From the NCBI GenBank assembly GCA_028283505.1, contig JAPOFX010000001.1, positions 72,197-136,196 of the forward strand: DNA of 64,000 nucleotides, written 5' to 3'. This DNA is from Candidatus Poseidoniales archaeon (lineage in GTDB: Archaea > Thermoplasmatota > Poseidoniia > Poseidoniales > Thalassarchaeaceae). The stretch's first letter is position 1. Every line of letters starts with the position of its first letter. Shown here piece by piece: positions 47,525 to 64,000 of this stretch. The translations under genes were made by a program, and so were the position numbers. The notes under the pieces are model-generated. The model searched no databases, was not told the DNA's origin, and was given only the letters and a program-made list of their open reading frames with translations.

Positions 47525-50500
47525 ATGTCGCTTAGTCCGCAGACCGCACAAGATAGATTTAGAGAAGGGAGGAAGGCACTGTTACTGGTGTTCCTCTTGC
47601 TAGCAATGCCACTCGCATCCTTCGTTCCGGGTGCCAGTGCATCTCACATTACTCAATATGCTGTTCAGAGGGATCCCTCAGATATCGCAGTTGGGGATTT
47701 GGATTGTGATGGTGACAATGATATCGTGTCAGCCAGTGCTATGGGGCATTTCATCACGACACTTTACAATGATGGTTCTGGAGGATTTGCGGATAGGCAG
47801 GACGTATTCATTTCAAACAACAACTCACAAAGAGCTGGTTTCGTTGATACAGCCAACGGTGTCGACGTCGAGGTCGGAGACATTAACGGCGACGGAACAA
47901 ACGACATAATTTACTACCAAGAGAATATCAGATTTGTAGGAGAGACCTTCGTTAGGCCAGGAAATCTGACTGTCTTGTTTGGTAGCTGCACCGACAGTGT
48001 AAACTCTTGGTCAGAAACTGCGATAACAATTTCTAATCCAATCCACATCAGTATGGAGGTAGGGGACATAAACGATGATGGCAATGACGACATAATCTTG
48101 ATCTCAAGGGATACCACAGGGTCCAGCCAGTATATCCAGATTTACAGAGGGCCGGATCCAAGCTTAATCACCAACCAACAGTCGATGCCAGTTCCCCTAA
48201 CCAATGGAATCTACACCGATGTCATGCTGGGGCACTGGGGAGAAACTGTCCAGGGCGGTGGCATTGGGACTCCTATTGGTGATTGTGATGATTTAGACAT
48301 GTGGCTACTTAGAACGCCACCTTGGAATGCAGGAGTTGGGTATTCTGTCGGCCACTATGATAACATGACCGTTCTTGAGTATGATTGTATCCAAGATCAA
48401 TTCCCTAACCCAATGACACCAACTGCACAGGGAGTTCACGAATTCAAGCTAGATGCAGAACACAACTATCCTATGGGAGGAATGGACATATCTGACACTG
48501 ATGGAGATGGAGAAATAGACATGGTCGCCGTCGTCGATGGCATAACAGGAAACATTTCCTACGCTATGAAGACCGGGAGCCAGTGGGACACCCAAAACTA
48601 CGTTCCTCTGGGCGACTACAAAGGAGCATCAATCACGATAGAGGACGTAAACAGGGATGGGGAGGTTGACTTCTTCGTACCAACCGAACTTACCTTGACA
48701 AGGCTCCAGGATTCCAGCGCCCAGAACCAGACTTTCCTGTTGCTCGATAACCTCAGAGAGATTAACACTGTGGAAATAATTCTAGCCAACCCCGACGGGC
48801 CAGGATATCTTTCTTCACTGTCTTTTGATGTCGGTAGGAGGCCCACGATGGCCATTCCAGGACAGTTGCAAGGAGGAGCCGATAGCGCATTCGAAATTAT
48901 CATCGGTCAGAGAGATTACGCCTACAGGTTTGCGAACAATGCGATGTGGCTAGACACTCAAGGATGGGGAGGAGCGGGCGACTTCCTATCCGTTCTCTCG
49001 TTGGATAACGAAGACATGGGAATTACCGACGTTACCATAGCGCCTGCATCACTCAACCCTGCCACAGGTCAGGCACAGATCGGTGAAGGTACCAGATTTG
49101 TAAACGTGACCGTAAAGAACACCGGTCTAAACCCCTTATCAGGCTCGATTAATGTAGACCTAGAGGTTAAGGAGGTTCTTGGTGGAGTCGACACGGTCGT
49201 TTACAGCAATGATTTCGACGGAAACGAGGTAGATACAAATTGTCCTGCGTGCACATTCTCAAAAGTCTCATACACAGGGATGTACGAAGCCGGATCTTCC
49301 TCTTGGCACGAAGAATCGAATGCTTCAGTCGATGCAAATGGGACCGCCACAGACGACTGGTATGAAGCAGACAGCAACCCAACAACCTACATGTGGGCAG
49401 GGTTGGATTACCAAGGTCTAGACAACCAGTCGGGATATTACAACAACATGGATGAGGCGATAATTTTGGAAAATGTCGATCTCACCGGGGCGGATGCAGC
49501 CTATCTCGATATCTCCCTTTTCTGCTCGTCCGCATTCTTCGAGCTTTACTTGGCGGAGCAATACTCAGTGGTCGAGAGATGGCTCTACGAGGACTCCTGT
49601 GGAATAGAAGTATGGTCAGAAGGCAGTGGTTGGGAGTCCGTCTTCTTCAATGGTGGATGGGATAACGAGAGATACTTCAGACTGCTCTTACAGGGAGTGG
49701 ATCCTGAATACAACACATACAACGGGAATCAATTTACCGCTACAGTCACCGGTTGGGAGGACTACAAAGAGGGTGGTGGCGATTCCGAGGAATTAAACGA
49801 ACAGGAATCAATAGACCTAACCCCATATGCGGGGCAAATCGTTGATATTAGGTTCAGATTCAGGAGTGGCCTACTCGGAACTGTCGGTCCCGAGGGCTCA
49901 TCACAAGGTACCGAGTGGGACGGTTTCGCATTTGATAACATAACCATAAGAAAGAGAGACGTAACATTCGGAACTCAAGAGGTCGTCTCAGATACGTTAA
50001 CCTTCACCGATTTAGCCGCAGGCGCTTCAGAGGAAGTGAGCCTGATGGCAGATTTCGTAGATAACACCACTTACTTCGTCAAAACAGAGCTATCTAGCCC
50101 TTCAGGATTCCAAAACATGGATGCAACTAACGACGAAGAGAGGTTCCAAACCACAGTAGCCAACCTCTTCGATCCTGGACTGGCAGAGGAGCCATGGAAG
50201 AATCTAGAGAACGGTGTGAGATATGCCTCAGGAACTAGGGACGTTGAAGTTAGGGCCACCAATTGGGGCAATACCTTGACAGATTTCTCGGTCAAAGCTG
50301 AGATCTACAATGCGGAGCCAGACCTCGTGGGCATCGAGGACTTCTCCGGAGTGGATCCAATCTGGACTGACGACGGAAACGAGAATGGAAGCAGGATCGA
50401 TGACTCTTCTGGGACAAACGACATGCTACCACAGAATGTTGGAGTCTTCAAGAACTTCGCTTACTGGCTCGGACACCCCGATACTGGATACGGAGATGGT

Positions 50501-53500
50501 TGGAATGAAACCATGACTCTTGACCCAATACCGATAGCAGCAGCAGGTGCCGACTTCACTTACCTGACCTTCGACTACTACGCCGAAGGAGACTTCCTTC
50601 AAGACTCAAATGGAAACATTCTCGCAGTCAGGGACGCAGCGAATCTTGAGATCTCCTGGACAAAGGAGGGAGAGTTGTACCAGGGAGTAGTTTATGGGAG
50701 CTGGAACGACTTGAATGAGAACGGAATACAGAATACCAATCCACAGGACCCAAATTTCCACAGGTGCGAGGATTTTGACCTGAATGGATATGATGAAGTT
50801 GAGTATTTCGGCGACCACTCAGACAGGCTAAACTCCGTTGTTTGGTTCGATACTGAGAACATAATGAAGTCAATCACACTGGACCTTACGCACATAGTCA
50901 TACAGAACAGAACTAGCTCTGATTCTACTGATTGGAGGGACGAGTGTACTACACTAGCTGGGGCCGAGGTAAGCCTCACATGGAGGTTCCAGTCCAATGA
51001 GGACGGAATTAACGGCAATGCCGGACTTGCAGGGTTCGCAATCGATAACATAAGAGTAGAGGAATTCACTTTCGAATTTGATGGAAACTACACTGAAGAG
51101 GTTACGGGCTTAGATGCCGCAGAATCCTCAACTGTCACCATCGCCAATCATGATTTCAAGAGTGGCATATACAGAATTGACGCTATGACTATGATGGACA
51201 CAACCGATCCAACTACTGCGTGGTACAACGCAGAAGAAGTGAATCTCGCCAACAACATCTCAACCATAATGTTCAGCATCGCAAGTGCAGAGATCACCCT
51301 TATGCAACCAGATGTGATGGAGTGTGTCACCGACATTACATACGAATGCGTTTATCCAATCGATGATCAAGCAATGCACAGCTTCTCCGTTCCTCTTCTG
51401 AACGGTGTAATTGATGGGGATTACACACTTACCATGTCGATAAAGGATCTCACTACAAACCAGCAGGTATTCGAACAGACCGCTGATAACGGCCCGTTCA
51501 CACTTGAGCCTCATCAGAGAGCATGGGCCAACTGGTCGCAGCCATTCAACTCGTGGGCTGACTCACACACCTACAACATCAGTTTCTCAGCAGAGGTAAC
51601 TAAGGAAAACGGATCAGTAGAGCCATCTGGAAACGTTCGCTTCTTCGTCATTACATTCTATGACCAGATAGATGTTGCAATATTATCCAACCCCACGGAC
51701 CAGAACCGTCTTCAGATGGTAAAGTCCGACCTTGAGGCAATGGGGATGTCATACACGCAGATGAGACTAGATAATTGGGATGAATATGCCACACCTTCAT
51801 GGTTGGAGCACTACGACAAGGTCCTGCTACCCTGGCAGACGGATTACAACGTTTACTACGGGGATTATTACGAGAAGCTTGCCTCAACCAGGGCATCAGA
51901 TGGACTGTCCGTTGTAGACACCTTGGAGCAGTTCATGGTACAAGGAGGGACTACCCAGATTCACCTAGGGCCATACAGGGATGCCTACCAGCCAAGCAAC
52001 CTACCATTTGGCATGGACATAGCAATGAGGAATCAGGTAAACCTCACAGAGGACAACAGGATCCTCAGTGAGGATATCACGATAGTCGACCCGTTCCACC
52101 CCATCATGGAAGACGTCGACCCAGCCGCATTCAGCGCCATAAACGGAGGAACGCATGTCGCTCTGTCAGGACTCGATACCGCGCAGGTCCAGTTCACACA
52201 AATACCACAAGTATGCGGTGGACGAATCAGCGATCCATCGGGTACATTCCATACTCTAATCCGAGACAACACCTACGAATCCCAGTCTTTACTATCGATA
52301 TGCAACAGGGGAGCCGGAGGGATGATTGTGACAACTATAGACGTGGAAAACCCCAGTGTCACCCAATCATTCGGCGGCGAGCAAATACCGATTCTCTCAA
52401 ACCTGCTCGACTTCAGATTGACTCCTTACCCATCAGACTTCGGAATCGCAGGCGAGGGATACGATTTGACCGTGAATGGCCAATCACCCTCTATTGACTC
52501 AATAACCGGGGCATACTCAACAATGTACATCAAGAGCAACTCTGATCTATCTTTCGACTATGTCACCAATGTTCCCGGAGTCGTTGCAGACTGGACACTT
52601 TCCTCTGGAAATAATGATTCAGTGACCGGTTGGGACGGTGCCATAATTGATGCCGGGGAAATCAGCCATACACAACAGAGTGCTCCAGAAATACCAACAT
52701 TAGGGTCTTTCTGTGTTGCAAACACCTCATCTAGCACAGGATGCAGGATTGGTGCAGAATGGCTTCTGACTCTATACCTGCACGACGAAGAGGGACACAC
52801 CAGAATAACTTACATCCGACTCGTGACAGATGATACACTGGCTGATGAGTTCAGACCCACGGCCTCTGCTTCGATAATATCCAATCCATCAACGTCCGAG
52901 TTCATTTCCATGGACGGAACTAAGACTGTGGCAGGGACAGACTGGCCGATATACAGAGTCAGACTTACCGAAACGGGGGACATCAGCTTAGCATTCACAG
53001 CAGAGAACAGCACTGATCCTGATGCACCAGAAGGAGAGTCAGGGATTGAGCTGTTCGAGTGGAAGGTATTCTTCGACTACCCTTGGGATAGCCAAAGCCC
53101 GACGTTGGAGGGCCACGTTTTCCAAGTCCCAGCATCTGTAACCGATGAGTGGACTTACACATTTAGAAACCTAACAAGCAATCCAGACGGGACTCTGGAA
53201 AATGAAATCAGAGTTGAGCTTATCGTCTACGATAAAGCAGGAAAGCAGAGTGAGAAGCACAGGATGTACTTCATTGTCGTTGGGGAAAACTTCGGTGACG
53301 ATCCTCCAATGGTCCAGTTCACAGCTCCGAGGCCGACAGACTCTCAGAGGGATGATCTCGTAGTCGTTACCGGCAACATGCTTACAGGTGCGGAAAATGG
53401 CGATGTTAAGGTCGAGATAGCTCTCAATGAATCAGTACTTGACTACTCCACGACTCAGAAAATAACCCAGAGAACCATCGGCAAATTCAACCAATCTGAC

Positions 53501-53962
53501 ATGCTGAGTGACGGGGACACATTCTCACTGACACTGGACATCTCAGATCTGTATCAGATTGAAACTGGTAAATCTGCCAAGATATATATCCGCATCACAG
53601 AAGGAGACGGCTCACGCTACGTGTTGTCCGAAACGATAGACATCAGCTTAGTGCCTCGCGGGGGCGCCTCCAATGGAGGGGGCTCGTCCGAAGGAGGCCT
53701 CAGTACGACAATCCTTGTTGGAGTTGGCGGGGCCCTACTATTGGTGTTGGTTGTTGTGGTAACTCTGGTATTCCGTGGACGATCCAGGGGAGATGTAGAG
53801 ACTGATACGGTCGAACAATTCGGAGGCGTGGAGACAATGGATCCGGTTGAGGCTTACGTGCAGCAAATGGTCGCATCAGGCTATGACGAGCAACAGGCAA
53901 GAGCATATGCAGAGCAGTACTACGCAAGCTATTACGAGCAACAGAGACGTGGTGGGGCATAG
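47525..53962 (+). CDS. Giant FG-GAP/VCBS-repeat surface protein with C-terminal anchor and cytosolic tail
   Basis: 2145 residues from an ATG; signal peptide at about 17-40 ('ALLLVFLLLAMPLASFV', ending ASAS). The N-terminal ~350 residues carry five calcium-binding FG-GAP-like blades (DLDCDGDND, DINGDGTND, DINDDGNDD, DTDGDGEID, DVNRDGEVD), so a beta-propeller. Then follow CARDB/Ig-like modules and two jelly-roll-like modules with matching 'EGTEWDGFAFDNITIRK' and 'GLAGFAIDNIRVEE' ends, a segment 'IDVAILSNPTDQNRLQMV' resembling a Rossmann-like glutamine-amidotransferase fold, and more beta modules. One membrane helix at about 2060-2083 precedes a 60-residue Gln/Tyr/Ala-rich cytosolic tail. Probably a major cell-surface adhesion or polymer-binding protein. 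Confidence 0.85.
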   Translation: MSLSPQTAQDRFREGRKALLLVFLLLAMPLASFVPGASASHITQYAVQRDPSDIAVGDLDCDGDNDIVSASAMGHFITTLYNDGSGGFADRQDVFISNNNSQRAGFVDTANGVDVEVGDINGDGTNDIIYYQENIRFVGETFVRPGNLTVLFGSCTDSVNSWSETAITISNPIHISMEVGDINDDGNDDIILISRDTTGSSQYIQIYRGPDPSLITNQQSMPVPLTNGIYTDVMLGHWGETVQGGGIGTPIGDCDDLDMWLLRTPPWNAGVGYSVGHYDNMTVLEYDCIQDQFPNPMTPTAQGVHEFKLDAEHNYPMGGMDISDTDGDGEIDMVAVVDGITGNISYAMKTGSQWDTQNYVPLGDYKGASITIEDVNRDGEVDFFVPTELTLTRLQDSSAQNQTFLLLDNLREINTVEIILANPDGPGYLSSLSFDVGRRPTMAIPGQLQGGADSAFEIIIGQRDYAYRFANNAMWLDTQGWGGAGDFLSVLSLDNEDMGITDVTIAPASLNPATGQAQIGEGTRFVNVTVKNTGLNPLSGSINVDLEVKEVLGGVDTVVYSNDFDGNEVDTNCPACTFSKVSYTGMYEAGSSSWHEESNASVDANGTATDDWYEADSNPTTYMWAGLDYQGLDNQSGYYNNMDEAIILENVDLTGADAAYLDISLFCSSAFFELYLAEQYSVVERWLYEDSCGIEVWSEGSGWESVFFNGGWDNERYFRLLLQGVDPEYNTYNGNQFTATVTGWEDYKEGGGDSEELNEQESIDLTPYAGQIVDIRFRFRSGLLGTVGPEGSSQGTEWDGFAFDNITIRKRDVTFGTQEVVSDTLTFTDLAAGASEEVSLMADFVDNTTYFVKTELSSPSGFQNMDATNDEERFQTTVANLFDPGLAEEPWKNLENGVRYASGTRDVEVRATNWGNTLTDFSVKAEIYNAEPDLVGIEDFSGVDPIWTDDGNENGSRIDDSSGTNDMLPQNVGVFKNFAYWLGHPDTGYGDGWNETMTLDPIPIAAAGADFTYLTFDYYAEGDFLQDSNGNILAVRDAANLEISWTKEGELYQGVVYGSWNDLNENGIQNTNPQDPNFHRCEDFDLNGYDEVEYFGDHSDRLNSVVWFDTENIMKSITLDLTHIVIQNRTSSDSTDWRDECTTLAGAEVSLTWRFQSNEDGINGNAGLAGFAIDNIRVEEFTFEFDGNYTEEVTGLDAAESSTVTIANHDFKSGIYRIDAMTMMDTTDPTTAWYNAEEVNLANNISTIMFSIASAEITLMQPDVMECVTDITYECVYPIDDQAMHSFSVPLLNGVIDGDYTLTMSIKDLTTNQQVFEQTADNGPFTLEPHQRAWANWSQPFNSWADSHTYNISFSAEVTKENGSVEPSGNVRFFVITFYDQIDVAILSNPTDQNRLQMVKSDLEAMGMSYTQMRLDNWDEYATPSWLEHYDKVLLPWQTDYNVYYGDYYEKLASTRASDGLSVVDTLEQFMVQGGTTQIHLGPYRDAYQPSNLPFGMDIAMRNQVNLTEDNRILSEDITIVDPFHPIMEDVDPAAFSAINGGTHVALSGLDTAQVQFTQIPQVCGGRISDPSGTFHTLIRDNTYESQSLLSICNRGAGGMIVTTIDVENPSVTQSFGGEQIPILSNLLDFRLTPYPSDFGIAGEGYDLTVNGQSPSIDSITGAYSTMYIKSNSDLSFDYVTNVPGVVADWTLSSGNNDSVTGWDGAIIDAGEISHTQQSAPEIPTLGSFCVANTSSSTGCRIGAEWLLTLYLHDEEGHTRITYIRLVTDDTLADEFRPTASASIISNPSTSEFISMDGTKTVAGTDWPIYRVRLTETGDISLAFTAENSTDPDAPEGESGIELFEWKVFFDYPWDSQSPTLEGHVFQVPASVTDEWTYTFRNLTSNPDGTLENEIRVELIVYDKAGKQSEKHRMYFIVVGENFGDDPPMVQFTAPRPTDSQRDDLVVVTGNMLTGAENGDVKVEIALNESVLDYSTTQKITQRTIGKFNQSDMLSDGDTFSLTLDISDLYQIETGKSAKIYIRITEGDGSRYVLSETIDISLVPRGGASNGGGSSEGGLSTTILVGVGGALLLVLVVVVTLVFRGRSRGDVETDTVEQFGGVETMDPVEAYVQQMVASGYDEQQARAYAEQYYASYYEQQRRGGA

Positions 53963-56270: not shown

Positions 56271-57458
56271 CTATATTTTACCATTTATCATCACAATATC
56301 CCCGGCCCAGTGAAAAACTAGTATCTCATCATTAAACCCTTTACCAAAACCAACTATCATTCCTCCTGAATTTCCTAGATGCCTCTCATTCCATTTTCCA
56401 TCCGTTTCTTCAAGTATCCAGATTGATCCAGTACAAAAGTCGCCATACAGATACCCGTCCCGAAGATTCTCAGGCCCCCAATCCATCCAGTATCCACCAG
56501 TTATGGAGCAGTTTCCATTTTCATGAGGGTAAGCCAATAATGGGTCAGTCAATCCATTTTCACTGTCATCTCGTGTACTTGAACAGCTCATTTCCTCTTG
56601 GAATTCCTGGAACCCTTCCCTCTCACTCCATCCCAAATTAGCTCTTTCAATCAGAGAGACCAGATTTACTTCCTCCCAGCAGTTCTGCCCAACGTCGGCA
56701 ATCCATAAATCATTAGAGTTTCCAATGTCGAAGCGCCATGGATTTCTCAACCCACTGTGAAGTATGTACGGGTCTCCCGTTGAATTATCAAGAACCGCCA
56801 AAACCTCATTATCCCTGAATTCAAACAGGAGAATCGTGCCCAGGGGACTGGACTGGTCCTGCCCGTGAGAGTGAGGATCATTTGCAGATCCACCATCGCC
56901 AAGCCCCCAAAGGTAACTGCTGTTACCTGCGTGGACAAGGAATCCCCCATTGTGATTCCTGTATGGTTGCTCAATTCTCTTAAGGACTGTAATTGAATCT
57001 GCATCAATCAAGCCGTTATCTCCAACTTCAGCCGATGACAAAACCAAGTCAGACTGATTTTCCCCTTCGCAAGTACCATCCTCAACATACGACAACAGAA
57101 CCAATTTGGAATTTTCAAAATCCTCATCAAAAGAAAACCCCAGCAATCCCTGCTCCATATGGCACCTACTAACTATCCCACTGAGATCTGCAACATCTTC
57201 CAAATTTTGTCCATCCCAAGATTTTATGATCCCGCTCAGGAATATGACCCACATTTTTCCATCCAGAGGGTTCAGTAGGGAATGATGCGCAGTCTCTCCA
57301 AGCTGCAGAACAGTTTGACATTCAAGATCGTAACTCATCTGGCATCCATCAGAGATTGGGTCAGGCCACTCAAAGCCATCATCGGAATCTCCTCCAAAGC
57401 ATCCTATGCTCAGTGAGGATAAAAAAAGCAGTAAAGTCAACACCATTGCTGATTTCAT
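56271..57458 (-). CDS. Secreted lipoprotein resembling soluble glucose/sorbosone dehydrogenase
   Basis: 395 residues from an ATG. The signal peptide ends in the lipobox SIGC (Cys20). The rest follows the six-bladed propeller family of PQQ-dependent sugar dehydrogenases and HIPL proteins: 'MEQGLLGFSFDEDF', 'RNHNGGFLVHAG' (the HNGG motif, with the active-site His), 'LGDGGSANDPHSHGQ', 'GLRNPWRFDI', 'DVGQNCWEEVN' and 'SITGGYW'. It would oxidise a sugar outside the cell, if PQQ or another cofactor is available. Eight or more cysteines suggest disulfides. It lies on the same strand as the transferrin-like gene (53 bp after its stop) but has its own AT-rich leader. Confidence 0.8.
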   Translation of the reverse strand: MKSAMVLTLLLFLSSLSIGCFGGDSDDGFEWPDPISDGCQMSYDLECQTVLQLGETAHHSLLNPLDGKMWVIFLSGIIKSWDGQNLEDVADLSGIVSRCHMEQGLLGFSFDEDFENSKLVLLSYVEDGTCEGENQSDLVLSSAEVGDNGLIDADSITVLKRIEQPYRNHNGGFLVHAGNSSYLWGLGDGGSANDPHSHGQDQSSPLGTILLFEFRDNEVLAVLDNSTGDPYILHSGLRNPWRFDIGNSNDLWIADVGQNCWEEVNLVSLIERANLGWSEREGFQEFQEEMSCSSTRDDSENGLTDPLLAYPHENGNCSITGGYWMDWGPENLRDGYLYGDFCTGSIWILEETDGKWNERHLGNSGGMIVGFGKGFNDEILVFHWAGDIVMINGKI

Positions 57459-57511: not shown

Positions 57512-58576
57512 TTAAGAGAAGTATGCCTGTATTCCCGGGACATTGGAAACTGCATCTCCGTAGGTTCCTAAGTGGGTATCAGCATTGGTTGCTACCATTC
57601 CATCGGTGTTTAGTAGATCACTGAGGATTTCACGGCCCTCTGCATCTTCGTTTAATGAAACCAATGCATTCTGCACCTTCTCCACAGTCTCGATGTCCAT
57701 GGTGTCCGGGTTGTAGAGAGCTGGGTGGCTCGGTGCCTTACCAAACGAGGGGAGCATTACAAGCTCATCAAGATCCATGCACCAGTCGTCTCCATCTGCA
57801 ACTCCGTCGTCGTTCTCATCGCAGTACAAGCGGTAGGCGGTATCCTTGACCAGTGCTACATCTCCATAACCTGTCATCATGCACTTCATGGCTCCCTTGT
57901 ATCCGGAGTATTGGGTTCCTCCCTCTGGGATGCTCGAATCCTCACTGAAGAAGTTGGTCACTGTCGCTCTGAGGGAGTCGATATCATTGGGGTCTCCGAT
58001 AACATCCGCGTATCCATTCCCGATCAAGTATCCCATCGGAATGAGCATTCCCGCGCTCTTTAGCCATCCTGTGTGACAGGACTTCTTGCCCTCCATCAGT
58101 GCGAATGGGTCGGTGTTCGGATCATCATCCAGGTGGGCTGCTGCTATGTCTGAGTCAGCCTTGACCCATGCAGCGGCATTGTAGTAAACCCTTCCATCGG
58201 ACTTCCACTCGGCCGCCAGAACATCCAACTCGTATACTTCCCATGCTAGCCATGCGGCGGCGCCGTCAACGAATCCGATATCAGCATTACCCTTGTCGAT
58301 GGCCTCGATGATACCGCCAGATCCGGTGACCGGGTAAATCTCAACGTCCATTCCGGTCAGAGAACTCATCTTGTCAGCTAGATGCTGAGGATTTTTATCC
58401 CATATTAGGTAGGTATCCTGTACCTCAAAAGCTATCGTCAGACAATTTTCTTCATCCTCACAGGATTCGTAGTTTACGTCAAAAATCAGATACAAAACTG
58501 TGGCTGAGAATATAATCCCTGCCATCAGGAACGCTTTATTCGTAACTGCCCAACTCTTGATTTCCTCTGTTCTCAT
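57512..58576 (-). CDS. Transferrin-lobe-like iron-binding protein, membrane anchored
   Basis: 354 residues from an ATG. An N-terminal helix (about 13-32) anchors it; the rest is a type-2 periplasmic-binding fold. The match to one transferrin lobe is detailed: Asp104 in FVDGAAAW, Tyr131 in VYYNAAAWVK, GKKSCHTGWLKSAGM (163-177), 'VTNFFSED', Tyr226 in SGYKGAMKC, GDVALVKDTA and His284 in APSH. These fall at human transferrin Asp63, Tyr95, Tyr188 and His249; Thr169 matches the anion-binding Thr120, while Arg124 is replaced by Lys173. Cys167/Cys232 match a conserved disulfide. Automated calls may give phosphonate-binding PhnD, a related fold. Fe3+ capture at the cell surface is inferred. A DtxR-like box lies at the promoter. 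Confidence 0.82.
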   Translation of the reverse strand: MRTEEIKSWAVTNKAFLMAGIIFSATVLYLIFDVNYESCEDEENCLTIAFEVQDTYLIWDKNPQHLADKMSSLTGMDVEIYPVTGSGGIIEAIDKGNADIGFVDGAAAWLAWEVYELDVLAAEWKSDGRVYYNAAAWVKADSDIAAAHLDDDPNTDPFALMEGKKSCHTGWLKSAGMLIPMGYLIGNGYADVIGDPNDIDSLRATVTNFFSEDSSIPEGGTQYSGYKGAMKCMMTGYGDVALVKDTAYRLYCDENDDGVADGDDWCMDLDELVMLPSFGKAPSHPALYNPDTMDIETVEKVQNALVSLNEDAEGREILSDLLNTDGMVATNADTHLGTYGDAVSNVPGIQAYFS

Positions 58577-58607: not shown

Positions 58608-58623
58608 TTTAGGGTAGCCTAAA
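58608..58623 (-). promoter_or_regulatory. DtxR/IdeR-like operator of the transferrin-like gene
   Basis: TTTAGG-GTAG-CCTAAA (plus-strand reading), a perfect 6-bp palindrome with a 4-base spacer, 32 bases before the minus-strand ATG at 58576. It matches the TTAGG-N4-CCTAA core of the DtxR/IdeR iron box and would overlap the transcription start. The TATA candidate AGTATACT (58634-58641) lies directly upstream and overlaps the stop codon of the preceding gene. Confidence 0.7.
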
Positions 58624-59669: not shown

Positions 59670-61700
59670 TCAGATTCTCCTTCTAGGTAGGATAACCCCA
59701 AGTGAGAATGCGATAAACAAACTCATCAATCCACTAGCTGGAAGCATTCCTGGAGATTCATCGGCTGGTTCTTGTGGGCCGATAACGACCTGTTCGAATA
59801 ATCGAGAATTATTCACAATCATCTCCACTTCTGAGCATTTTCCAGATTCATCACATCCCTCCACGATTACCCGGTGCTCTCCAGATTCCCAAAGTGTGAA
59901 ATCGATATTAGGGGTCGACCAAGAGTTTCCAGATGCGCTCACAGAACCTGCCATCGCACCGTTTAATTTCATCGTGAAAGAGACGGATTCTCCATCTGGA
60001 TCGCTGTATTGCCCTCTCATCGACCAACAGCATCCTTCCCACTCAGAATTTGAGATGGAAATCAAGGGAGGTGTACTTTCTTTCACAATCCCCAAGATGT
60101 AAGTGTAGTCCATCGTGAAGACCTCGTCCCCTGTGACAATGATACGAACATCTACCAGACCAGGGAGCATGTTGGAAGAGTCTCCCACTACACCAATAGA
60201 GCTCGATGAAATAATTTCCACTGTCCCTATTTCCTGATTAACAGATCCTTGGACTAATTGAGCCACGACACTCAATGCTGGCCAGTTGGCTTTCGGATCA
60301 ATAGTAATATTATGGGGATTGGTTAACGTATCGGAATCAGAGTAAACTGAGAATGGTACTCCGATATGCCAGGTCCTTTCACTTGTGGCTAAGCCGTCCC
60401 CATCAGTCGCTTGACATGTGACATCTAGAGTGCCAGATTCTGGAATAACCGCCCTAATTGATCTGTCAGGCGCCTCATCCAACTCCATACCTGATCCATC
60501 ACGGCATGATATTTGCAGGTTTGAGGCACCATTCTCATCGTAGAACCATCTTGAGACTGCATCGTTCCAATCCGCCCAAATCACATCCCCAGAGAATGGG
60601 ACAGGAAACCATGTGCCATTCACCGGCGCATAATCTGTCCAGATGGGAGGGGCTGGTTCTGGAATTGGTTCGGTAGTGAAGTCGAAAAACAAATCTTCTC
60701 CCAACGGCCAATCTTCCCTATACCCATTAGGGCTTAGCTCCAAAGTCAGTGTTCCATCTTCGTTTTCAACTAGATTGAAGGATGATGATCCGTCACCGAT
60801 ACAACTCCCAACCGTCGGCGCCAATCCTCCAGCAGTAGACTCGTTCAATCCAACATCCCTGCCTTCACATTCATCCCACATTTCCAAACGCAGGTCCTCC
60901 ATCTCAGGGAAAGTAAAGTCAAATCTTGCTCCTGACAGGTTCGAGGCATTTATTGAGAATGTGAATTTGCTTGGGTCATCTACCCCAGAGATGGATAGCG
61001 TGGCATTGAGCCAGAGCTGAACCCTGCATTCGTCCATTCCAATATCGAATGAGACTTCGGTGTCGCAATCCCTATCTTGGTCGGGAATTACCGGAACTTC
61101 ATTGCATTCGCCTCCGATGGATGAAGTACAGCTCCTCATTTGGGAATGTCGAGGAGGCACTATGTTCCATTCCTCAATCTCTACGCCGTCCTCCTCCCAG
61201 CTAGTGTTCTTCCAATCGATTCCAACTCCTCCTCTGTGTGCCGGACCATCTCTGAGCCCTATTCTGGTCAAGGTGTGTTCGATGCATTCACTCGCCAGAG
61301 CTCTGAAGAACTCCCTCTCATCCGTGGAAAACCAGCCATCTCCTCCCTTGTTAGGGTCCAGTAATTCCATGAATTCATCCATAGTGAGCCTCAGTTCATC
61401 GGCCAGAGTTCCATTGACCCAAGCTACTGCTTGGACGTTGGCACTTTTCCAATCTTCGTCAATAACGATTTCAAAAGTAGCCTTTGAGTACTCAAACATA
61501 TTCTCAAACGTTATCGACCCACACTGCTCCTCTAGGCTACCCCCGCCTCCACCAATCTGAAATATTTTATTTGGTACCGAATCTAGATCATTATTCGCGC
61601 CAATATCGCTCAAAGGCATGGAAATAATCGATAATGCGACCACAAAGCAGAACCACGGAGCCTCGGATATGCCACCCATATGTGCATTTTGAAGGGTCAT
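59670..61700 (-). CDS. Secreted PKD/Ig-like surface protein with C-terminal sorting-type signal
   Basis: 676 residues from an ATG (Met8 also possible); signal segment about 14-34. Middle regions are Asp/Cys-rich, with several cysteine pairs ('QMRSCTSSIGGECNE', 'QDRDCDTEVSFDIGMDECRV') and Ig/PKD-like folds ('VTCQATDGDGLATSERTW', 'GQYSDPDGESVSFTMKL'). The C-terminus is a tripartite signal: 'ESPGMLPASGLMSLFIAFSLG' then VILPRRRI, i.e. short motif, hydrophobic helix and Arg cluster, as in proteins processed by sortases or archaeosortases. Function unknown. It is the first gene of a minus-strand run with gar1 and GDPD. Confidence 0.75.
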   Translation of the reverse strand: MTLQNAHMGGISEAPWFCFVVALSIISMPLSDIGANNDLDSVPNKIFQIGGGGGSLEEQCGSITFENMFEYSKATFEIVIDEDWKSANVQAVAWVNGTLADELRLTMDEFMELLDPNKGGDGWFSTDEREFFRALASECIEHTLTRIGLRDGPAHRGGVGIDWKNTSWEEDGVEIEEWNIVPPRHSQMRSCTSSIGGECNEVPVIPDQDRDCDTEVSFDIGMDECRVQLWLNATLSISGVDDPSKFTFSINASNLSGARFDFTFPEMEDLRLEMWDECEGRDVGLNESTAGGLAPTVGSCIGDGSSSFNLVENEDGTLTLELSPNGYREDWPLGEDLFFDFTTEPIPEPAPPIWTDYAPVNGTWFPVPFSGDVIWADWNDAVSRWFYDENGASNLQISCRDGSGMELDEAPDRSIRAVIPESGTLDVTCQATDGDGLATSERTWHIGVPFSVYSDSDTLTNPHNITIDPKANWPALSVVAQLVQGSVNQEIGTVEIISSSSIGVVGDSSNMLPGLVDVRIIVTGDEVFTMDYTYILGIVKESTPPLISISNSEWEGCCWSMRGQYSDPDGESVSFTMKLNGAMAGSVSASGNSWSTPNIDFTLWESGEHRVIVEGCDESGKCSEVEMIVNNSRLFEQVVIGPQEPADESPGMLPASGLMSLFIAFSLGVILPRRRI

Positions 61701-61730: not shown

Positions 61731-61746
61731 TTTAGGGCTCCCTAAA
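61731..61746 (+). promoter_or_regulatory. DtxR/IdeR-like operator of the Fea1-like gene
   Basis: TTTAGG-GCTC-CCTAAA, same half-sites and spacer as 58608-58623, immediately before the TATA candidate GATATACT (61750-61757) and 44 bases before the ATG at 61790. A repressor bound here would cover the TFB/TBP site. Confidence 0.72.
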
Positions 61747-61789: not shown

Positions 61790-63034
61790 ATGAATCTGAA
61801 AATAACAAGCACAATGATGACAATGATGTTTCTGCTAAGCGCACTCGCAGGGTGCACTGGCGGAGATGAAGCAGTTGACCTGGACGACTCAGACGGAGGC
61901 TACGATTACGCCTCTAACGTCGACAATCACCGAATGCTGATGGGAGATGTCTGCGATATCAAGGACCTATCCGGAGCATACGACTGGGACGGTGTCATGG
62001 ACATATATGAGAACGGAAAGCACGCAGAGAAGTCTGACGGCTCCTACAGGACGCTGATGGCCTTCGCTGACGCATCCGGTAAGAATCACGCATACGATGA
62101 TTACTATGGCGCAGATGGCTCATGGAACGACTTCGTATCTGCTGCTATCGAGGGCACAGGACCATTCGCAGGCGAGTCTGACACTGTCAGGGATCAAGCC
62201 ACAGAGAAGGGAATCCAGAACGGTGTGATGACTGCATACGCTATCCACGAGCTCAACGCAGCCATCATCAAGGCTGAAGCGGGAAACTGGGGGCCTGATG
62301 ACGCTCAGCACGCATGGGATGAGGGATGGGCATTCTACCACGGACCAGATGATGCAGATGCAGACTACGACGGATGCGGGCCATTCGCTACCGCAGCAAA
62401 AAGAGGTGGAAACTTCGGAACCGGAGATGCGACAAACATCGCTACTCTAGCAGCAATGAACGACGGACTTACAGCATTGAAGAATGAAGACATGCAAGGA
62501 GTAATCGACGCACGTGACGAAGTTCTGAAGAACGTGGTAATCGTTTACTCACAAGCTTCCGTTAGGTATGCATCGAAAATGACAGATGACCTAGCCGCTG
62601 GAGATACTGCAGACTACGACAAGCACCAGGCAGAGGGTCACGCCTTCTACCGGGTAATTGAGGCATATGTCGCCGAGCACACGTCAATCTGCTACAACAT
62701 GGTCTCTCACTCGGTCTCATCGGATAGCTCACAGGCATCTTGCGAGGCATACATGTATCTAGAAAACTACACATCTCCAAACGACCCGAATGGAGAGGAG
62801 TTTACTGGTTGCTATAATTCGGTGACACACGCTCAGCACGAGGGAATGTCTCAGGAAGAGTGCGAGGCTTTTGGATGGTATGCTAATTACTATAATAACA
62901 AGATTCTCGAAATCTTTGATCTGAAAAATGATGGAGATGAAACAGCAGATTACGAAGCTGATGTTCGCTCATACTTACAGCCAGTCTGGGATGCATTTGG
63001 CATCACAGCTGACGATATTGGAACACTCCAGTAG
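61790..63034 (+). CDS. Fea1-like low-iron-inducible lipoprotein
   Basis: 414 residues from an ATG. The lipobox LAGC gives a lipid-anchored Cys22, followed by an acidic linker. Two related helical halves each contain an E-G-x-A-F-Y motif: WDEGWAFYHG (176-185) followed by 'CGPFATAAKRGGNFGTGDA', and AEGHAFYRVIEAYVA (281-295). This pattern matches Fea1 (PF07692), the algal low-iron and high-CO2 induced periplasmic protein that promotes iron assimilation. Residues 301-370 are an insertion with two copies of a Cys repeat, 'CYNMVSHSVSSDSSQASCEA' and 'CYNSVTHAQHEGMSQEECEA'. It lies between two transferrin-like genes and has an iron-box-like operator. Assignment rests on motifs recalled from the family. 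Confidence 0.65.
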   Translation: MNLKITSTMMTMMFLLSALAGCTGGDEAVDLDDSDGGYDYASNVDNHRMLMGDVCDIKDLSGAYDWDGVMDIYENGKHAEKSDGSYRTLMAFADASGKNHAYDDYYGADGSWNDFVSAAIEGTGPFAGESDTVRDQATEKGIQNGVMTAYAIHELNAAIIKAEAGNWGPDDAQHAWDEGWAFYHGPDDADADYDGCGPFATAAKRGGNFGTGDATNIATLAAMNDGLTALKNEDMQGVIDARDEVLKNVVIVYSQASVRYASKMTDDLAAGDTADYDKHQAEGHAFYRVIEAYVAEHTSICYNMVSHSVSSDSSQASCEAYMYLENYTSPNDPNGEEFTGCYNSVTHAQHEGMSQEECEAFGWYANYYNNKILEIFDLKNDGDETADYEADVRSYLQPVWDAFGITADDIGTLQ

Positions 63035-63238: not shown

Positions 63239-64000
63239 ATGAAGTCATCAATAGCTCATCCAAAGCCGTCAACAGGGGGCGGGGTTAGAGCTTCAGCGAT
63301 GGCTGTTTTGATCATCTCATGCGCGGTCTCCGGTTGCTTAGGCCAAGATAAACCTGAAGAGGAAAGAACTTCTATCACAATCGCCTACGAGGTTTCTCCA
63401 AACATGGTCGATCCTGGCTTGAGTCCACAGATTTTCTCGGACTACATATCCGAAATCTCGGACTTTGATATTACAATAAACATTGTTGACTCTAAGGTGG
63501 CCATGTTAGAGGCACTTAGGTTTGGAAATGTCGATGTTGCGTACATGGACAGTGGTAACGCGTGGATAGGGTGGAACCAATATGGAATAGAGGTTCTAGC
63601 CGCCGATCAAAAATCTGATGGAAGATCTTACTATAACGCAAACGCATGGGTATTGAATGACAGTGACATGGCAATCGCGCATCTTGACTCAGATCAGCTC
63701 ACTAACCCATTTTCCCTCATGGAAAGTAAGGTGTCATGTCATACGGGTTGGCTAGACTCAGTTGGAATGATGCTTCCAATGGGCTTCCTGCTAGGTCTGG
63801 GATATGCAAATATTGTGGGGGATCCAAACGATATCGAATCACTCAGAGGAACAATCCATGGATACTTTAGTCAGGACTCTTCGATCCCTGATCCGGGATC
63901 GCCGCTCTATGGGCTTTCAGGAGCACTAAAATGCCTCTCAGAAGGGTCGGGGGACATAGCATTCGCCAAGGAAAACTCAATCCAAGATTTCTGTCCAATT
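63239..64000 (+). CDS. Transferrin-lobe-like lipoprotein, paralogue with altered ligands, 3' partial
   Basis: 254 residues visible; the frame runs through the end of the window. Start chosen at the ATG 63239, giving a lipoprotein signal with VSGC (Cys33); the frame is open back to an ATG at 63083. It aligns with the protein at 57512-58576 almost without gaps, with identical positions for Asp104, Tyr131 (SYYNANAW), 'SCHTGWLDSVGM' (166-177) and GDI near 239. It differs at two key sites: Leu226 (LYGLSGALKC) replaces the ligand Tyr, and Asp173 replaces the anion-binding Lys/Arg. The His ligand position lies beyond the window. It may bind another metal or be a partner of the first. Confidence 0.8.
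   Translation, partial: MKSSIAHPKPSTGGGVRASAMAVLIISCAVSGCLGQDKPEEERTSITIAYEVSPNMVDPGLSPQIFSDYISEISDFDITINIVDSKVAMLEALRFGNVDVAYMDSGNAWIGWNQYGIEVLAADQKSDGRSYYNANAWVLNDSDMAIAHLDSDQLTNPFSLMESKVSCHTGWLDSVGMMLPMGFLLGLGYANIVGDPNDIESLRGTIHGYFSQDSSIPDPGSPLYGLSGALKCLSEGSGDIAFAKENSIQDFCPI

Follow-up and report, generated by a model that had tools for sequence, protein, structure and literature searches.

A transferrin-type binding protein of marine Poseidoniales archaea and its probable role in Fe3+ import

Introduction

Transferrin and phytotransferrin are held to have a common origin among the phosphonate-binding proteins (McQuaid 2018, as cited in PMC7676907), and phytotransferrin has been called functionally analogous to transferrin (PMC7676907, PMC7972479). 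In the openly readable literature that we searched, the archaeal proteins treated here are nowhere described. Nor is transferrin mentioned in the open papers on Poseidoniales that we checked. A genome survey places "transport of phosphonates" in the core genome of the Poseidoniales (PMC6336850).

We here discuss a gene in 64,000 nucleotides of a Candidatus Poseidoniales archaeon (GCA_028283505.1, contig JAPOFX010000001.1, positions 72,197 to 136,196), called the window throughout. We consider it highly probable, as judged from sequence, that its product serves Fe3+ import by a transferrin-type ABC system.

The predicted iron and anion sites

Open reading frame, profile matches and alignments define a single-lobe transferrin-type substrate-binding protein of 354 amino acids, encoded at 57512..58576 on the minus strand. 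An N-terminal membrane anchor (about residues 13-33) can be read from its sequence. Alignment to transferrins predicts Asp104, Tyr132, Tyr226 and His284 as iron ligands and Thr169 and Lys173 as the anion site, and it makes Cys167-Cys232 the counterpart of the transferrin disulfide pair.

An earlier, sequence-only reading of the window had placed the gene at the correct coordinates. The residues it named stand at the numbers it gave in the translated protein, and the motifs it quoted are all there: GKKSCHTG (163-170), NFFS (208-211), GYKGAMKC (225-232), GDVALVK (238-244) and PSH (282-284). Its claim of four transferrin ligands holds for Asp104, Tyr226 and His284, which are aligned onto transferrin ligands by the family profile in hmmsearch and by hhalign. 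Its choice of Tyr131 as the fourth, however, is off by one: phmmer, hmmsearch and hhalign all align transferrin Tyr95 (Tyr92 of lactoferrin) with Tyr132. Of the 63 single-lobe family proteins, 62 share this Tyr132, the sole exception being a truncated C-lobe, while position 131 varies between Y, F, S and H. The ligands had also been said to stand at transferrin spacing; they can be aligned, but the statement holds only loosely in view of several indels. D104, Y132, T169, Y226 and H284 occur together in 58/63 of the single-lobe proteins, and both cysteines in all 63. Ligand conservation is a direct observation.

The synergistic anion site of transferrins consists of Thr and Arg. Thr169 is the same, and Arg124 is replaced by a near-constant Lys173 (59/63), the single change at this site that had already been noticed. 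Thr169, Lys173 and the loop around them suggest carbonate as the likelier partner anion. The exchange of Arg for Lys counts against Fe3+ import, and it would also fit another kind of cargo: ferric iron chelated by citrate, pyrophosphate or a borrowed siderophore, or iron bound together with an anion other than carbonate. Iron in surface seawater is mostly chelated, and human transferrin takes malonate, oxalate and citrate, as seen in PDB entries among the fold matches. Yet the Thr and the entire SCHTG loop, which hold the carbonate in transferrins, are kept, and we regard a chelate or a different anion as rather unlikely.

Transferrins versus phosphonate-binding proteins

The closest PDB sequences of the protein are all transferrins or lactoferrins (phmmer, best E 5e-22). 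When the PDB was searched by hmmsearch with a profile built from 28 archaeal lobes, bovine lactoferrin came out at 9e-47 and ovotransferrin at 6e-46. The profile-profile alignment that the earlier reading had proposed favours the same side: five animal transferrin lobes are matched by the archaeal family at E 4e-34 (204 aligned columns, 29% identical), and PhnD proteins more weakly, at 2e-21. Likewise, the archaeal HMM scores 74-101 bits per transferrin lobe versus 14-53 bits for PhnD proteins. Animal transferrins and PhnD proteins match each other directly only at 3e-8; the archaeal family therefore bridges the two. The homology as such is established directly.

The Pfam Transferrin model (PF00405) gives the protein 61.1 bits, with a cut-off of 20.3, and is matched by 28/28 family members at E<=0.001. 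The Pfam Phosphonate-bd model (PF12974), however, outscores it with 86 bits, which counts against Fe3+ import; archaeal members generally score well on both models. The score would suit an ordinary binding protein for phosphonate, phosphite or phosphate in a PhnCDE importer, whose transferrin motifs reflect shared ancestry only. Annotation pipelines, like the core-genome survey (PMC6336850), indeed name phosphonate transport. The models that are specific for PhnD disagree: the protein stays far below the cut-offs of the equivalog TIGR03431 (28.8 versus 261.1 bits) and of the subfamily model TIGR01098 (39.2 versus 112.05 bits). Moreover, the STSG-type anion loop of PhnD is replaced by SCHTGWLKSAG, and the compared PhnD proteins lack both the transferrin Asp and SCHTG. 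Together with the gene content and the iron boxes described below, this makes a phosphonate binder of the ordinary kind highly improbable. FbpA models were not matched by the protein in Pfam and NF/TIGR profile searches.

PhnD proteins had been said to lack the motifs as a set, and this proved correct, with partial overlap in two PhnD-like proteins from other Thermoplasmatota (L079 and L080). These have both Tyr positions and PSH; Asp and SCHTG are missing. Possibly they are intermediates between PhnD and transferrin-type sites.

The AlphaFold2 model of the protein has a mean pLDDT of 85.7. Its top fold match in Foldseek is the human transferrin N-lobe (2.2e-15). AioX, PtxB and ArrX, all of the PhnD family, come next with almost equal scores, another point against Fe3+ import.

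Gene neighbourhood

Directly downstream of the transferrin-type gene, after a gap of 53 bp, lies a gene for a GSDH-type lipoprotein with a PQQ-like sugar dehydrogenase fold (56271..57458, minus strand). It keeps this position in the related Thalassarchaeaceae loci seen and is possibly co-transcribed. Divergently follow, on the plus strand, the genes of a FEA1-related lipoprotein of the Fe-assimilation family (61790..63034; PF07692 1.7e-19, NF038033 350.8 bits versus a cut-off of 250) and of a two-lobe transferrin-like lipoprotein (63239..64000). The latter is cut by the end of the window; its whole frame is L005:7268-9568, with an uncertain start codon. Outside the window come a PhnC-type ATPase gene (ABC_tran, L005:9642-10355), which follows the two-lobe gene and a third iron box, and a PhnE-type permease gene (BPD_transp_1, L005:10352-11269). 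This gene order is directly observed.

Across the Poseidoniales, genes of the family are nearly always found beside a PhnC-type ATPase and a PhnE-type permease, and the company is the same in distant Thermoplasmatota and haloarchaeal loci. We therefore take the transferrin-type protein to be the component that binds the substrate for an ABC importer. That its partners resemble PhnC and PhnE, and not FbpBC, speaks against Fe3+ import and for phosphonate transport. However, a profile search for PhnJ, the C-P lyase, found it in 0/60 relatives. Besides the transferrin-type proteins, the source genome contains no phosphonate-binding match; the surveyed "phosphonate transport" is therefore very probably the transferrin-type system under a wrong name.

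The two-lobe paralogue differs from its single-lobe neighbour. Lobe 1 retains the Asp and Tyr132 but neither Tyr226 nor His284, and in lobe 2 none of the four ligands is left. Because of these losses in both lobes, the paralogue probably does not hold iron in the same way. The SCHTG loop is nevertheless kept in both lobes, which suggests that the paralogue either binds something else or is a helper that binds nothing.

Two further surface or secreted proteins are encoded in the window. One, a surface protein of 676 amino acids (59670-61700), has no credible Pfam match; most loci keep its gene close to the transferrin-type one, in some cases in divergent orientation and with the box region common to both. 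The other (47525-53962) is a secreted FG-GAP-repeat protein of 2145 amino acids with a C-terminal membrane anchor.

As to other iron transporters, profile searches of the relatives detected FeoB in 0/60 and FecCD above the cut-off in 7/60. An SBP_bac_6 protein is present in 11/60, including the source genome, where it is encoded elsewhere; it could be another iron-binding candidate and in this respect counts against the role proposed here.

Iron boxes and regulation

A putative IdeR/DtxR-type iron box, TTTAGG-N4-CCTAAA, is located at 58608..58623, ahead of the transferrin-type gene and 31 bp from its start codon. A second perfect box (61731..61746) precedes the FEA1-like gene by 43 bp, and the third (L005:9617, outside the window) lies just upstream of the importer ATPase gene. 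A structural study of IdeR proposes the 14-bp sequence TTAGGNNNNCCTAA as the IdeR/DtxR consensus (PMC8464063). The search for boxes had been prompted by an inverted repeat upstream of a relative (L032). Without mismatch, TTTAGG-N4-CCTAAA occurs in the window at exactly two sites, 58608 and 61731; in the whole 1.3-Mb genome, TTAGGNNNNCCTAA is found at three: before the single-lobe gene, the FEA1-like gene and the importer ATPase gene. The boxes and their uniqueness are, again, plain observations.

The association extends to most of the family. Of the 89 family genes whose upstream stretch was long enough, 67 carry a box no more than 420 bases ahead of the domain start, versus 0.02 expected from shuffles. 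For most of the boxless two-lobe genes, a FEA1 gene further upstream carries one. In the single-contig genome G035 there are two sites, both at the transferrin gene. Such specificity for transferrin-type genes disfavours a phosphonate-binding protein. The distribution of the boxes is the weightiest test for a role in iron metabolism; of course, regulation by iron is no proof that the protein binds it.

A suitable regulator appears to be at hand. DtxR-family proteins were detected by profile search in 57/60 relatives, and a haloarchaeal relative of the transferrin-type gene is adjoined by a gene for an iron-dependent regulator (Fe_dep_repress). An Rfam search near the locus revealed no RNA element. 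The DtxR family also comprises Mn regulators, and the system might thus import another metal, such as Mn2+ or Zn2+, under a regulator of the MntR kind. Two Tyr, an Asp and a His with a synergistic anion site are, however, typical of Fe3+, and the box is the iron consensus of IdeR/DtxR (PMC8464063) and also precedes an FTR1 iron permease gene in another Thermoplasmatota genome (G382). The import of a metal other than iron is accordingly the least probable of the alternatives considered here.

In G094, one box is found between SUF and NifU-like genes and another overlaps the start of hemA. The loci with boxes at FTR1, hemA and SUF/NifU-like genes (L152, L155, L167) hint that in Thermoplasmatota the IdeR regulon is more extensive. 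The transferrin-type genes of G382 and G435 (L063, L064) are without a box.

Distribution of the family

The Pfam transferrin model was matched in 253 of 319 Poseidoniales genomes and in none of 14 control genomes, 12 of which were matched by the phosphonate-binding model. Outside the order, matches were obtained in three other genomes of the class and in three from other Thermoplasmatota families. Contamination or an assembly artefact had been considered and was ruled out by the 253/319 matching genomes with their conserved gene order; they include the single-contig genome G035 and isolates labelled AG-313-L18 and AH-287-M04. Viral contigs and phage records were also searched, and no relatives were found there.

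The haloarchaeal relative resides on a plasmid of Natronococcus occultus (32% identity, 6e-21). This copy (L122:5609-6639) is unannotated and split by a frameshift; its Asp is changed to Ser, and the counterparts of Cys167 and Cys232 are both Ala. The Asp exchange and the frameshift count against Fe3+ import. Two-lobe members with intact ligands in both lobes also exist, e.g., L066 and L107.

The origin of transferrin

In a maximum likelihood tree, archaeal and animal transferrins are together split from the PhnD proteins with a support of 100/99; the animal side of this sample consists of five vertebrate lobes and contains no algal ones. The tree shows the animal proteins nested in the archaeal family. 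The AU test, however, does not back this arrangement (animal transferrins inside versus beside the archaeal family, p 0.42-0.51), and we do not claim it. The sequence-only reading was right to see a bearing on the origin of the transferrin fold, but the test settles neither direction nor branching.

An undecided branching order leaves room for the archaeal family having been acquired from a transferrin of eukaryotic plankton, instead of the reverse. Such an acquisition appears improbable, since the archaeal members have kept PhnD-type features and ABC partners, score on both Pfam models, bridge PhnD and animal transferrins, and occur in several Thermoplasmatota families and one haloarchaeon.

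Tentatively, one may go further and see in the archaeal family a preserved precursor of the eukaryotic transferrins, with a carbonate-dependent Fe3+ uptake in Poseidoniales that is weakened by acidification; this is conceivable, yet we would not bet on it. If true, the ancestor of transferrin was an ABC binding protein of the PhnD kind in which the iron and anion site of transferrin was already complete; in some lineages, two lobes were present as well. Ocean acidification would then weaken archaeal Fe3+ uptake, as has been proposed for diatoms.

Proposed function and significance

The earlier suggestion that the protein binds Fe3+ is supported by ligand conservation, the kinship to transferrins, the iron boxes, the FEA1 neighbour and the regulator next to the haloarchaeal relative. 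For iron binding, the role of carbonate, the delivery to the nearby permease and repression by a DtxR-family protein we infer the following course. A membrane-tethered lobe outside the membrane would close on one Fe3+ by means of Asp104, Tyr132, Tyr226 and His284. The anion, most likely carbonate, would be held by Thr169, Lys173 and the start of a helix in the fashion of a transferrin lobe. The Fe3+ would then be handed over to the PhnE-type permease, with the PhnC-type ATPase as the driver, both encoded nearby. When iron is plentiful, an IdeR/DtxR repressor loaded with Fe2+ may silence the transferrin-type, FEA1-like and ATPase genes via the TTAGGNNNNCCTAA boxes.

Poseidoniales are among the most abundant archaea in the surface ocean. 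A published "phosphonate transport" trait of this dominant marine order would become that of a probable iron importer with a named regulon, and thereby a candidate route of Fe3+ uptake in a group mostly devoid of FeoB and FecCD. If carbonate is the partner anion, the iron supply of these archaea would be sensitive to seawater chemistry. Finally, a prokaryotic, ABC-linked relative with a full transferrin site makes the question of transferrin's origin testable.

Comparison with known systems

With the transferrin family (PF00405: serum transferrin, lactoferrin, ovotransferrin, melanotransferrin) the archaeal protein shares the ligands, the SCHTG anion loop, the fold and the positions of the Cys118-Cys194 disulfide; some archaeal members even have two lobes. 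In contrast to the animal proteins, it is tethered to the membrane, has an adjoining ABC importer and Lys in place of Arg124, and involves neither receptor nor endocytosis.

PhnD, PtxB and AioX (PF12974), with PhnC and PhnE, resemble it in the role as ABC substrate-binding protein, in gene partners and in fold. They differ in their STSG ligand loop, where the archaeal protein has SCHTG and four predicted iron ligands; it also fails the cut-off of the PhnD equivalog.

The phytotransferrins ISIP2a/FEA1 (PF07692) capture labile iron in the sea, ISIP2a with carbonate, and a similar role is predicted for the archaeal protein. Although it belongs to a different protein family, there is a tie: the FEA1-related lipoprotein gene is its neighbour and has the same box.

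The FbpA/FutA-type proteins, too, are substrate-binding proteins for Fe3+ in ABC importers, the role predicted here. The ligand set of FbpA uses Tyr pairs. Unlike these proteins, the archaeal one matches no FbpA model, and its gene partners are PhnC/PhnE-like.
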